From the NCBI GenBank assembly GCA_903878115.1, contig CAIRGO010000269.1:1-58939 (forward strand): 58,939 bases of DNA, written 5' to 3'. The stretch comes from Akkermansiaceae bacterium. Lineage in GTDB: Bacteria > Verrucomicrobiota > Verrucomicrobiia > Verrucomicrobiales > Akkermansiaceae. A program made the translations under genes and the position numbers. Shown one piece after another: positions 1 to 40,418 of the stretch. Position 1 is the stretch's first letter. Each line of letters opens with the position of its first letter. The notes under the pieces are model-generated. The model saw only the letters and a list, made by a program, of their open reading frames with translations. It made no database searches and was not told the DNA's origin.

Positions 1-28
1 CAATCTAATCTAGGTGAGGAAGCATTGG

Positions 29-763
29 TCAAAGATTCTGTATGGCTGACACACGCATTCCTTCGAAGGTGATGGTGGAATCTACGCGATGAATCATATC
101 GATTCCACGAGCAATCAGTGCGGCATCACCGCCCGTTGCGATCACTTTTACATCGCCAGATATTTCTGCAAGAAGTTGATGTAAAATTTCTTTTACTAAA
201 CCACGATAGCCGTAGATGGCGCCTGCGGTCATAGCCTCGATGGTAGACTTGCCAATCGCATGCTTTGGCTCTGCGAGTTCGATCAACGGCAGCAGAGCAG
301 TTTTGCGATGTAGATAATCATTCATCGCGCCCAGACCCGGTGCGATCACGCCACCGCAGTATGCTGGTTGAGCGGAAATGACGTCGAAGGTCACAGCGGT
401 GCCAAAGTCGATCACGATGGCAGGTGCAGCGTAGCGCTGCATCACACCCACTGCATTAGCGAGGCGATCCGCGCCGATTTGACGTGGATTGGGGTAGTCG
501 ATGGCAAGATTAAGTTTGCTGTCGCAGGTCAATGAATGAAAGGGAAATTGGGCAGCAAAAAACTCGCTGATGATGGCAGCCTTTGGTGGGACTACTGAAC
601 ACAAGAGCACTGCGTCGAAAGTAATGCCGCCGGTGATGGTGGCGAGTGCCTCTGCCGAAATATCCGCAGTGGGCAACCATTGCTGCCAATCTAGTAATTC
701 ATCCTGATTCGCTAAGCAAAATTTGGTGCGTGTGTTGGAGTTATCAATAAGCAGATAGTTCAT
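29..763 (-). CDS. coaX: type III pantothenate kinase
   Basis: Catalyses the first step of coenzyme A synthesis, ATP-dependent phosphorylation of pantothenate, in the cytosol. The N-terminal phosphate-binding motif DNSNTRTKF, the central PNPRQIGADRLAN and IDFGTAVTFD motifs, GGVIAPGL and a late ATGG follow the order of the CoaX (ASKHA-fold) family. The length of 244 residues is normal. The frame is open from a TTG at 775, but the ATG at 763 is preferred because the protein then begins MNYLLIDNSN, as in other CoaX proteins. It lies 5 bp after a small membrane-protein gene on the same strand and is probably co-transcribed with it. No terminator is visible before the window edge. Confidence 0.95.
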   Translation of the reverse strand: MNYLLIDNSNTRTKFCLANQDELLDWQQWLPTADISAEALATITGGITFDAVLLCSVVPPKAAIISEFFAAQFPFHSLTCDSKLNLAIDYPNPRQIGADRLANAVGVMQRYAAPAIVIDFGTAVTFDVISAQPAYCGGVIAPGLGAMNDYLHRKTALLPLIELAEPKHAIGKSTIEAMTAGAIYGYRGLVKEILHQLLAEISGDVKVIATGGDAALIARGIDMIHRVDSTITFEGMRVSAIQNL

Positions 764-36429: not shown

Positions 36430-37224
36430 TTACATTTCCTGTGGGGAAGGCATTTGGTAATCCTTACCACGATTGTTACCGTTACCATTGGTGTTTGTTT
36501 GTGGGCGTACCGTGAGGGTCTGGAGAAGCGCCACAAGATGGCTTGATGCTGCTTCTAGTTCGCCAATGTAGCGCTGGGTGCGAGTGCGGAAAAAAGCGTA
36601 AGCGAGCATGGTAGGGATCGCGATGATGAGTCCCGCTGCCGTGGTGATAAGAGCTACGGAAATACCAGAAGAGAGTTCCATTTGTTTTACGCCTTCGGTT
36701 CCATGTGATAGGTCGAAAAATGCCTGAATCATCCCGAGCACAGTTCCTAACAAACCTAACATAGGCGCTACGTTGCCGATATCAGAGAGATAACTCACGC
36801 GTGCCGTGAGAATTCCCGCTTGGCGCGATCCCTCGGATTCTGTAATTTCGCGGACTTCTGCTAGCGTCACACTCGGGTTGGCAATGATAAAGTCCAATAC
36901 TCGCTGGGTGATACGCGCCATGCATTCGGATTGGCGACGACTAAATGCGGTCAAGCCCTGCAGATCACGTGAACGAATCAGCGACTCCGCTTCATCCATG
37001 AAACGATCTGAGACCACGGAGTTTTGACGAATTGTAAAAAGATAGAGCAGGCAGAGCGTAGCCGCGATCACCGAGAGACCCGCTAGCGGATACATGACCG
37101 GTCCGCCTTGAAAGAATAGATCCATGATATTGAACTGTTCTTTATTGGGCTGAGCGTCCGCGCCGAAGGCAGATGTGGCTGATAATAGGCCGATGATAGC
37201 GCTAAGAGAAATAATACGGTTCAT
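36430..37224 (-). CDS. exbB: biopolymer transport protein ExbB/TolQ with signal peptide
   Basis: A MotA/TolQ/ExbB proton-channel protein of 264 residues. It has a cleavable-looking signal (MNRIISLSAIIGLLSATSAFGA), found in ExbB proteins of several phyla, then FQGGPVMYPLAGLSVIA, and the paired pore helices with GNVAPMLGLLGTVLGM and ALITTAAGLIIAIP. The start at 37224 is chosen over 37263 for the signal peptide. It heads the exbB-exbD-TPR operon and diverges from uvrC. Confidence 0.92.
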   Translation of the reverse strand: MNRIISLSAIIGLLSATSAFGADAQPNKEQFNIMDLFFQGGPVMYPLAGLSVIAATLCLLYLFTIRQNSVVSDRFMDEAESLIRSRDLQGLTAFSRRQSECMARITQRVLDFIIANPSVTLAEVREITESEGSRQAGILTARVSYLSDIGNVAPMLGLLGTVLGMIQAFFDLSHGTEGVKQMELSSGISVALITTAAGLIIAIPTMLAYAFFRTRTQRYIGELEAASSHLVALLQTLTVRPQTNTNGNGNNRGKDYQMPSPQEM

Positions 37225-37314
37225 GTTAGGAGTGGATTGTATCATGGAATTAGGGAAGAGCAATCGCGGAAAAAGCGTTGCTGGGGAGCGGCAATGGCAA
37301 ATTGTGAATAATAT

Positions 37315-37342
37315 TTGTGATTCGGTGGGACTCAGTTACTAT
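37315..37342 (+). promoter_or_regulatory. candidate uvrC promoter
   Basis: TTGTGA, 16 bp, TACTAT: 4 of 6 matches at each box. The predicted start lies roughly 10-15 bp before the chosen uvrC ATG. No LexA-like palindrome was recognised nearby. Confidence 0.35.
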
Positions 37343-37360
37343 AGTTGCGCAATAGAGAAC

Positions 37361-38920
37361 ATGGAAAAAGCTGATTTTAGAATAAAATTGAGAGAGGTGC
37401 CCCATCAGCCAGGTGTTTACCTGATGAAGGATCGCATAGGCTCAATTATCTATGTCGGAAAGGCAAAAGATCTACGTAAGCGGCTGTCCAGTTATTTCAT
37501 GGCATCGCGAAAAATGCGCGCGGATGCTAAAACACGCGCTTTAATCGAGGCGATATGGGATTTTGAAATCCATGTGGTTCGCAATGAACAAGAATCGCTG
37601 TTGCTAGAAGGGAAGCTCATCAAGGACTATCGTCCTCGCTATAATGTGGCATTTCGCGATGATAAACAATTTTTGCTGCTGAAAATCAACGTGCTAGATC
37701 CGTGGCCACGCTTGATGATGACGCGATTAAAAAAAGATGACCAAGCCCGATATTTTGGTCCTTTTGCTCATTCCACCGCTCTGCGTGCCACCGTGGAATG
37801 GCTGAATCGTAGTTATGGATTGCGCGTCTGCCGACCTAATGAACCTGGTGAAGTCGAATACAAACATTGCAATGCAGATATCATCAGAAATTGCTCAGCG
37901 CCCTGTGTGGCGAGGATCACACGTGAAAAGTATCATCAAAGCATCGATGAAGTTTGTCGATTGTTAGAGGGAAAAGGTCGCCGGGATAAGCTCGATGAAT
38001 TGCGTGAGGAAATGTCCAGAGAAGCGGAAGCAATGCATTTTGAAAAAGCGGCCTTGTTGCGCGATGTGATCCAAAATTTGGAAATCACCTTGAATCCCAC
38101 GCGACAATTTAGCCGGGGCCGGGGACTTCCAAGTACCGTGAAGCCAACCGAAGACCTAGCCGAACTTGGCGAATGGTTGCATTTGCCTAGCCCTCCGCGA
38201 GTCATGGAGTGTTTTGATATTTCTAACGTTTCTTCCAATCACATCGTAGCATCTATGGTGCGATTCGTCGATGGAGTGGCGGATAACCAAGCGTATCGTC
38301 GCTACCGCATCAAAACAGTGACTGGACAAGATGACTTCGCCAGCATGGCGGAAGTGGTGCGACGTCGCTATTCGCGGATACTATTAGAAAATGCCCAAGC
38401 CAATCCTGATATTGCAGCAGAAAGCCAAGAAAATGTGATAGAGATTCAACGTCGACTAGCACGAGAAGGCAAAGCCAAAGTGCTACTGCCCGATCTCGTC
38501 ATTGTCGATGGTGGCAAAGGACAACTTAGCATGGCGGTGGCGGAATTGCGAAAATTGAAACTCCATGAGTTGCCTGTGATCGGTCTCGCCAAACAGCGGG
38601 AGGAAGTTTTTCGCCCGGGGCATAGTGAGCCGATTCTTATTCCCCACGATCGCGGCGCTTTAAAGTTGCTACAACGCATTCGCGATGAAGCCCATCGATT
38701 TGCCAATGGCTATAATTCACTGCTGCTGCGCCGTCGTATGAAGGAAAGTGTCTTAGATGATTGCCCGCTGATCAATGCAGCAAGAAAAAAATCGTTATTC
38801 AAGCATTTCGGTTCCGTCACAGAATTACGCAAAGCAACCTGCGCAGAAATCGAAGCATGCCCCGGAATCAACAAAGCGGTTGCTCAAGCACTATTTGCGT
38901 GGTTGGAAGTGAGGAAATAA
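37361..38920 (+). CDS. uvrC: excinuclease ABC subunit C
   Basis: The dual-incision nuclease of nucleotide excision repair, 519 residues. The N-terminal GIY-YIG domain has QPGVYLMKD and IIYVGKAKDLRKRL. A Cys cluster (HCNADIIRNCSAPC) follows, then the UvrB-binding UVR motif, and the RNase H-like domain with ECFDISN and VIVDGGKGQL. The C-terminus has a single recognisable helix-hairpin-helix (ACPGINKAVAQALF). It is shorter than E. coli UvrC (610). The ATG at 37361 is chosen, and the 62-residue upstream extension lies over the exbB start and has no family match. Confidence 0.95.
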   Translation: MEKADFRIKLREVPHQPGVYLMKDRIGSIIYVGKAKDLRKRLSSYFMASRKMRADAKTRALIEAIWDFEIHVVRNEQESLLLEGKLIKDYRPRYNVAFRDDKQFLLLKINVLDPWPRLMMTRLKKDDQARYFGPFAHSTALRATVEWLNRSYGLRVCRPNEPGEVEYKHCNADIIRNCSAPCVARITREKYHQSIDEVCRLLEGKGRRDKLDELREEMSREAEAMHFEKAALLRDVIQNLEITLNPTRQFSRGRGLPSTVKPTEDLAELGEWLHLPSPPRVMECFDISNVSSNHIVASMVRFVDGVADNQAYRRYRIKTVTGQDDFASMAEVVRRRYSRILLENAQANPDIAAESQENVIEIQRRLAREGKAKVLLPDLVIVDGGKGQLSMAVAELRKLKLHELPVIGLAKQREEVFRPGHSEPILIPHDRGALKLLQRIRDEAHRFANGYNSLLLRRRMKESVLDDCPLINAARKKSLFKHFGSVTELRKATCAEIEACPGINKAVAQALFAWLEVRK

Positions 38921-38943: not shown

Positions 38944-39201
38944 TCACTCTTCTTCACTATCGTCTTCGCATATTAATGGGTTTACAAATCTCTCTAACAA
39001 CGTTCGATGCTTGGTGATGCGACCGGTGACCCGCTTGCGCCATAGCCGGAAGCTGGCTGGTTTTAGCTCTTGGCGCATCAGATCAATCACTTCGCTCTCG
39101 CTTAAGCCACTGCGTTTTTTTATCTCTTCAAAGCTAGTGCGATCATGCCATGCCAGACGGATGATTCCAGAAATCCATTCTTTGGTGTGCGTTTTTTTCA
39201 T
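38944..39201 (-). CDS. TIGR03643 family protein
   Basis: An 85-residue basic protein beginning MKKTHTKEWISG. The core IIRLAWHDRTSFEEI and LMRQELKPASFRLWRKRVTGR fits TIGR03643, a small family of unknown function that looks like a DNA-binding or helical regulator. Its ATG overlaps the TGA of the photolyase-like gene by two bases (ATGA), so the two are translationally coupled. This supports a joint function. Confidence 0.84.
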   Translation of the reverse strand: MKKTHTKEWISGIIRLAWHDRTSFEEIKKRSGLSESEVIDLMRQELKPASFRLWRKRVTGRITKHRTLLERFVNPLICEDDSEEE

Positions 39202-40418
39202 AATAAAGTAGGTTGTGCTAAATATTGGCTCATTTTTTTCCAATAAGGGAAAAAGCCTGATTGAGCATAGGAGTAAGTATCGTGATCACTTCTGCGACGC
39301 ACGAATTGCAGTAAAATATTATTTTTTGTTAGAGCGTCTGTCAGACTTGGTAGCATGTCACGCGCCGCGCCTATCGTCGGCGCAAAGGCAATGATTTCAA
39401 GCAATTGGTTACTCTTCGCCCAAGCGAGAATTTCTTGGATCGCCTCATGTTGATCGAGGCGCGTTACAGGGAGATTGAAATGTTCTGTGGCACGTTTGAC
39501 AGCATCGGCAGTAACCGCCGCGAGAGCTTTTTGCCTAAGCCCGCTGATTCCCTTGATTTCACAACTCTGCACCGCAATCGCTTCACCTTGCCAGCGGGAA
39601 AATGGACCCACTTCAGGCAGTAGATCTTCGCTATGCAACCACAGACCGCTGCGCAAATTATTCTCCGTAAGTGTATCAGGATAGTGTAACCGCTCTGCGC
39701 AATGTAGATCAGCCGTCTCTTCCTGAGCTTGGGATGCGAAAGCGCCATCAGCGATTCGCTGGTTACCCGCTGTGTGCTGAAGCAATGAATCATCGGCGTA
39801 TTTTTCCAGATTAGACAATCGCACGGTATAAGTTTTGCCAAATGTCTGTAAGCCGGCAACCCAGCGCCACGAGAGGGTATTACTGGCGGGATCTGCATCT
39901 AACAAATGTCGATAGAAAAAATCAGCACCCAGTTCCCATGGTAATTTCTCCGCATGAATCCAAAAACTAGCCCACCACATGCGTGCATGATTGTGCAAGT
40001 AACCTTTCTCCACCAACTGATGTGCCAATGCATCCATGCAAGCCACACCGCTCTGACCAGTGGCGACTTTGGCGGCACGATCAAGCACCTCGGCGGAAAA
40101 AATTTGTGTGGATTGCTCCACGCGGTTTCTCCATGAAGTCCACACATCGGGTCGTCTCTCTAACCATCCTTTCCAGTATCGCCGCCAGCAGATTTCCTGT
40201 AGCCATTTTTCGGCGGTGGAAAAGGAATAGCGGTTTAGGGTTTCATCGATGATTTGATCTTCGCTGATCAACCGATGCCGAATCGCCGTGCTTAATAAGG
40301 AAACATTACGATGCTGTTCATGGACATAATTTCGGTCTTTTGCATACCTGCCGACGCGCGGCAAAAATTCTCGCCAAATGGCTAAGGCATCTGTGCGCGT
40401 GAGTGGTATTTCAATCAT
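39198..40418 (-). CDS. photolyase/cryptochrome-like flavoprotein with inverted domain order
   Basis: A 406-residue protein. Residues about 1-215 match the FAD-binding helical domain that forms the C-terminus of DNA photolyases: RNVSLLSTAIRHRL, ICWRRYWKGWL, HNHARMWWASFWIH, LDADPASNTLSWRWVAGLQ. The remaining 150 residues look like the alpha/beta (antenna) domain that is normally N-terminal, ending with ARDMLPSLTDAL and GFFPYWKKM, comparable to the end of that domain. The order is thus reversed. FAD binding is likely; repair of light damage or signalling is inferred. It is coupled to the TIGR03643 gene. Confidence 0.78.
   Translation of the reverse strand: MIEIPLTRTDALAIWREFLPRVGRYAKDRNYVHEQHRNVSLLSTAIRHRLISEDQIIDETLNRYSFSTAEKWLQEICWRRYWKGWLERRPDVWTSWRNRVEQSTQIFSAEVLDRAAKVATGQSGVACMDALAHQLVEKGYLHNHARMWWASFWIHAEKLPWELGADFFYRHLLDADPASNTLSWRWVAGLQTFGKTYTVRLSNLEKYADDSLLQHTAGNQRIADGAFASQAQEETADLHCAERLHYPDTLTENNLRSGLWLHSEDLLPEVGPFSRWQGEAIAVQSCEIKGISGLRQKALAAVTADAVKRATEHFNLPVTRLDQHEAIQEILAWAKSNQLLEIIAFAPTIGAARDMLPSLTDALTKNNILLQFVRRRSDHDTYSYAQSGFFPYWKKMSQYLAQPTLL

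Follow-up and report, generated by a model that had tools for sequence, protein, structure and literature searches.

An Akkermansiaceae genome encodes a photolyase-like protein whose domains stand in inverted order, with the helical FAD-binding domain first and the alpha/beta domain last. We consider it highly probable that this gene specifies a photolyase that is functional and belongs to the inverted-topology (NewPHL) class, in which the counterpart of the classical N-domain packs at the C-terminal end and TIGR03643 is a co-transcribed, repair-associated protein. The first-pass annotation of the window (the whole 58,939-nucleotide stretch of contig CAIRGO010000269.1 that was analysed) had called the domain order inverted and unusual. 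Structure, profile comparison and phylogeny agree that the inversion is real, and this order has already been described, in NewPHL and in Phr4/5/6.

Results

Gene and locus

The open reading frame at 39198-40418 on the minus strand is intact and encodes 406 amino acids (coding part 39201..40418), with its ATG at 40418 and its TGA stop at 39198-39200; the plus strand of the same interval is full of stops. The protein consists of an N-terminal helical FAD/catalytic domain (residues 1-233; 39720..40418, minus strand), a variable linker seen in both the alignment and the structural model (residues 234-255; 39654..39719, minus strand) and a C-terminal alpha/beta "Z" domain that resembles the photolyase N-domain (residues 256-401; 39216..39653, minus strand). 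This whole layout is common to 86 full-length homologues. Since these come from many assemblies and agree, an assembly error was ruled out as the source of the domain order.

A small gene of the TIGR03643/DUF2805 family (85 amino acids plus stop; 38944..39201, minus strand) follows directly. Its ATG overlaps the photolyase stop in an ATGA, as the first reading of the locus had it. Further downstream lies uvrC (excinuclease subunit C; 37175..38920, plus strand; coordinates of its longest listed open reading frame), identified by the Pfam domains UvrC_RNaseH, GIY-YIG and UVR. It is convergent, tail to tail, with the TIGR03643/photolyase pair, and genes of light and dark repair are thus side by side; we regard uvrC as a repair-gene neighbour and do not claim it as a member of the unit. 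A gene of glycosyl-hydrolase fold is found 52 nt upstream of the photolyase gene on the same strand.

FAD domain and active site

The FAD-binding domain, placed by the first-pass annotation at residues 1-215, proved to be a photolyase FAD domain spanning approximately residues 1-233. Pfam assigned PF03441 (FAD_binding_7) to residues 72-204 (E 1.9e-22), and the NCBIfam photolyase and DASH models matched solely with the positions that cover the FAD part, C-terminal in these models. An alignment of the window protein with 49 homologues (n=50) was the input for an AlphaFold model of the 406-residue protein. The model is confident (pLDDT 94.6, pTM 0.91) and displays the two expected folds in inverted order, with helices up to residue ~222 and five strands with helices over residues 257-401. 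Superposition of residues 1-233 of the model on the FAD domains of photolyases and cryptochromes with solved structures gave a Z score of 18.4 (rmsd 2.5 A over 218 residues, chain 209..483).

The 50 sequences were then placed on the photolyases of E. coli and A. nidulans. In CPD photolyases, five residues (E274, W277, N341, M345 and W384 in E. coli numbering) hold the lesion. Their counterparts E75, W78, N143, M147 and W186 are invariant in 50/50 sequences, as is N180, the asparagine facing N5 of FAD (E. coli N378); this invariance is as expected for repair. Also invariant in all 50 are D174, D176, Y25, R79 and S40, and the FAD-contact residues are kept except for T234, which is replaced by V. 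The class I tryptophan triad W382-W359-W306 is incomplete in the FAD-first family: the inner tryptophans W184 and W161 are invariant (n=50), and the outer one (E. coli W306) is not conserved in the 50 sequences, its position being the variable Q105. Relative to E. coli photolyase, H144 replaces an R, H155 a K and A165 an E, all three changes being invariant. None of the cysteines in the 50 aligned sequences is invariant or close to it, and an Fe-S cluster is therefore most likely absent.

On the strength of these residues, the window protein most likely repairs cyclobutane dimers. The N-terminal helical domain would bind both FAD and the cyclobutane pyrimidine dimer. Under blue or UV-A light, FADH- would donate an electron to the flipped-out dimer, which would then split, while the C-terminal alpha/beta domain, predicted to dock onto the FAD domain, would close the FAD site. 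By analogy to characterised NewPHLs, from which a preference for single strands is drawn, the substrate is possibly single-stranded DNA.

The C-terminal alpha/beta domain

The last ~150 residues, which had been proposed to resemble the alpha/beta domain of photolyases, form a five-strand alpha/beta domain in the AlphaFold model and fold confidently when modeled alone (pLDDT 91.3). The best solved matches of the isolated domain are N-terminal domains of photolyases (Z 11.5, 11.2 and 11.2), led by 1iqr (Z 11.5) and including 5kcm (Z 11.2, rmsd 2.4, chain 2..134). The outcome named beforehand as contradicting the reading, a C-terminal half with no structural match to a photolyase alpha/beta domain, hence did not occur. 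Universal-stress (USP) domains scored Z 10.3-10.6, within ~1 Z of the photolyases, so that structure by itself fixes only the fold of the domain.

The domain search on each half, as suggested in the first-pass annotation, succeeded for the N-terminal half through PF03441, but single C-domain sequences returned no PF00875 match in Pfam. A narrow profile-profile comparison, which set 50 C-domains against 20 canonical N-domains, detected no similarity (1.3%), the C-domain profile matched no photolyase among PDB sequences, and Foldseek with the C-domain alone returned nothing at E <1e-3. The wide comparison by hhalign, of 87 C-domains (alphaproteobacterial and split relatives included) with 48 canonical N-domains, reached 88.7% (P 2.5e-6), with an alignment that runs collinearly through the domain until, at its end, FFPFW falls on FTPF/FTPY. 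The score was 79.1% without the Deinococcus bridge and 81.8% with Verrucomicrobia only; 20 column shuffles stayed at <=0.5% and the reversed profile at 0.1%. As independent evidence, the split alpha/beta ORF of Deinococcus sp. QL22 matches both PF00875 (E 2.3e-4) and the window C-domain (E 9e-5). From the wide profile similarity, with its near-zero controls, and from this split ORF, we conclude that in the C-domain the N-terminal alpha/beta domain of classical photolyases has been relocated to the other end of the protein.

Relatives and phylogeny

Family matches are common in the genus, family and order of the window genome. Full-length homologues of 34-35% identity occur in Rhodobacterales, Hyphomicrobiales and Azospirillaceae, a Sphingomonadales relative was confirmed by profile, and further relatives are present in Novosphingobium and Asticcacaulis. 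The alphaproteobacterial homologues are annotated as "FAD-binding domain-containing protein" at most, and otherwise not at all. In a phage collection the matches were only partial, none of them a full-length relative. A maximum-likelihood tree built from FAD domains unites all FAD-first proteins, verrucomicrobial and alphaproteobacterial, in one clade (100/100), apart from the conventional photolyases of the same genomes, and within this clade the Verrucomicrobia constitute a subclade (99/97). The alphaproteobacterial members presumably belong to the same lineages as the NewPHL reference species. The second photolyase of the window genome (L094) is of conventional order and falls outside the FAD-first clade. 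The FAD domain starts at ORF residues 6-102 in FAD-first proteins versus 174-307 in full-length conventional photolyases. One tree row among the FAD-first proteins (L050_389) was dismissed as a chance match on a long branch (length 6.21).

Several relatives depart from the single-gene arrangement. On a Deinococcus plasmid, the inverted photolyase is encoded by two ORFs, one for the FAD domain and one for the alpha/beta domain, which overlap by ATGA (L119:3890-5181), and in a verrucomicrobial genome a frame change splits it into two ORFs (L131:1402-2668). On a Persicobacter plasmid, a FAD-first photolyase is followed directly by one of conventional order (L121:3692-6497). At L025-L028, close relatives of the window genome encode diverged FAD-first proteins of 372-396 aa whose C-terminal domain escapes the family profile, and two of these genes adjoin a second photolyase-like gene. 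In several verrucomicrobial loci (L084-L090), the inverted photolyase stands in operon-like runs with DUF2256 and a second PF00875/PF03441 photolyase.

TIGR03643 and DUF2256 neighbours

With 95.7 bits against the curated cut-off of 66.55, the downstream gene belongs fully to TIGR03643/DUF2805 (PF10985). The proposal of a two-protein light or repair unit held in part. TIGR03643 lies immediately downstream of the FAD-first gene in 13 of the 57 database loci with enough flank, far above chance, but it is missing or elsewhere in most, and it adjoins other repair genes. With stricter flanks (54 database loci and 21 loci from relatives), TIGR03643 was within 600 nt in 13/54 and 5/21, and DUF2256 was near the FAD-first gene in 20/54 and 3/21. 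In the proposed check of co-occurrence, across 57 related genomes, TIGR03643 co-occurs with the photolyase family (12/24 versus 5/33, Fisher p 0.005) and is adjacent to the FAD-first gene in five of the 12 co-occurring genomes.

Elsewhere, TIGR03643 adjoins a DPRP photolyase (L153), the radical-SAM repair gene TIGR03916 (L150, L152, L155), a PF00875/PF03441 photolyase (L122) and DUF2256 (L125, L148, L149, and an Acinetobacter plasmid). TIGR03643/DUF2805 and DUF2256 genes recur beside the DPRP photolyase, radical-SAM TIGR03916 and a cryptochrome-like photolyase, at loci that include L160. On a Vibrio plasmid TIGR03643 is 1.4 kb from a photolyase, and on two Pseudoalteromonas plasmids no annotated photolyase is near it. 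Its absence or displacement in most loci and its other repair neighbours make TIGR03643 a recurrent repair-associated gene and not a fixed partner of the FAD-first architecture. The profile of TIGR03643 resembles Lrp/AsnC helix-turn-helix regions at a sub-threshold level only; the gene is probably co-transcribed with the photolyase, and its small product, which possibly contains a helix-turn-helix, is probably repair-associated. Our literature searches found no paper on TIGR03643, none joining DUF2256 to photolyase and no link of these small genes to photolyases; the DUF2805 papers found, a metagenome correlation study and a Nudix survey, do not concern photolyases. More tentatively, the verrucomicrobial inverted photolyase, TIGR03643 and DUF2256 might form a light-dependent repair module in which the small proteins, shared with DPRP photolyases and a radical-SAM repair protein, act as general accessories of direct-reversal repair; this proposal is doubtful.

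Discussion

Three other accounts of the gene were weighed. If the C-domain were an unrelated nucleotide-binding domain of Rossmann or USP-like type that had become fused to the rear of a photolyase FAD domain, this would explain the closeness of the USP scores to the best photolyase score, the lack of PF00875 matches in single sequences and the negative narrow comparison. The wide profiles (79-89%), collinear down to the terminal F-x-P-F motif with controls near 0, speak against it, as does the split relative whose alpha/beta domain matches PF00875 and the window C-domain alike, and we hold this account to be unlikely.

A cryptochrome-like photoreceptor on the inverted scaffold, with FAD signalling without repair and TIGR03643 as the output partner, appears very unlikely. 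The missing outer tryptophan, the invariant H144, H155 and A165, and the small gene for a possible helix-turn-helix protein next to it in some genomes would all suit such a role; against them stand the invariance of all five CPD-recognition residues and of the FAD N5 asparagine, the repair genes in the neighbourhood and the lack of an adjacent TIGR03643 in most genomes. Most improbable is a (6-4) photolyase, or an enzyme of wider lesion range, as proposed for picocyanobacterial Phr4/5/6. These share the reversed order, and for Phr4/6 the (6-4) activity was suggested from Fe-S cysteines (PMC9426592), but the CPD quintet is intact here and the 50 homologues, lacking conserved cysteines, most likely have no Fe-S cluster. 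For want of these cysteines, the Fe-S (6-4) type was rejected. The reading that we favour is a CPD photolyase of the NewPHL class.

Inverted-topology photolyases are hereby extended into Verrucomicrobiota. At the level of profiles, the C-terminal domain is supported as a classical N-domain relocated to the other end, a domain permutation that occurs naturally and has split versions beside it. That TIGR03643 and DUF2256 are repeatedly linked to photolyases and to further repair genes offers both families a testable role, and this small-gene neighbourhood is the less explained part of the locus.

Comparison with known photolyases

Inverted-topology NewPHL photolyases were reportedly first described by Emmerich et al. 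in 2020 (doi 10.1093/nar/gkaa1147). The inverted order is accordingly not new, and the window protein adds a Verrucomicrobiota branch to an enzyme class that was already known. A PDB sequence search found no NewPHL structure, and a literature search for permuted photolyases found nothing relevant under that description. Both the inverted order of this class and its repair of CPDs in single strands are published (PMC9426592; PMC13274461), with reference species in Dinoroseobacter, Methylobacterium, Erythrobacter and Rhodospirillum (PMC13274461). Like the window protein, NewPHL has the FAD domain first and a short C-terminal domain. The clade shared in our tree is with alphaproteobacterial FAD-first proteins that presumably belong to the NewPHL lineages, and through these the window protein may share ancestry with the characterised NewPHLs; the group of the window protein is a separate Verrucomicrobiota subclade, ~34% identical to the alphaproteobacterial proteins, and some of its members, unlike NewPHL, have TIGR03643 or DUF2256 neighbours.

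Picocyanobacterial Phr4/5/6 combine the reversed domain order with Fe-S cysteines (mBio 2022, PMC9426592; PMC13274461). Phr4/Phr5 and Phr6 of marine Synechococcus/Cyanobium resemble the window family in that order and in having both split and fused versions (here L119 and L131), but Phr4/6 keep four Fe-S cysteines, which the window family is without. Judged by its sequence, the window protein would fit NewPHL and not Phr4/6. TIGR03643/DUF2805 is a family not confined to the FAD-first architecture. The class I/III CPD photolyases (E. coli PhrB, A. nidulans, A. tumefaciens 4u63) have the same FAD fold and active-site residues as the window protein and differ from it in the outer triad tryptophan and several basic residues; their alpha/beta domain is N-terminal, whereas that of the window protein is C-terminal.
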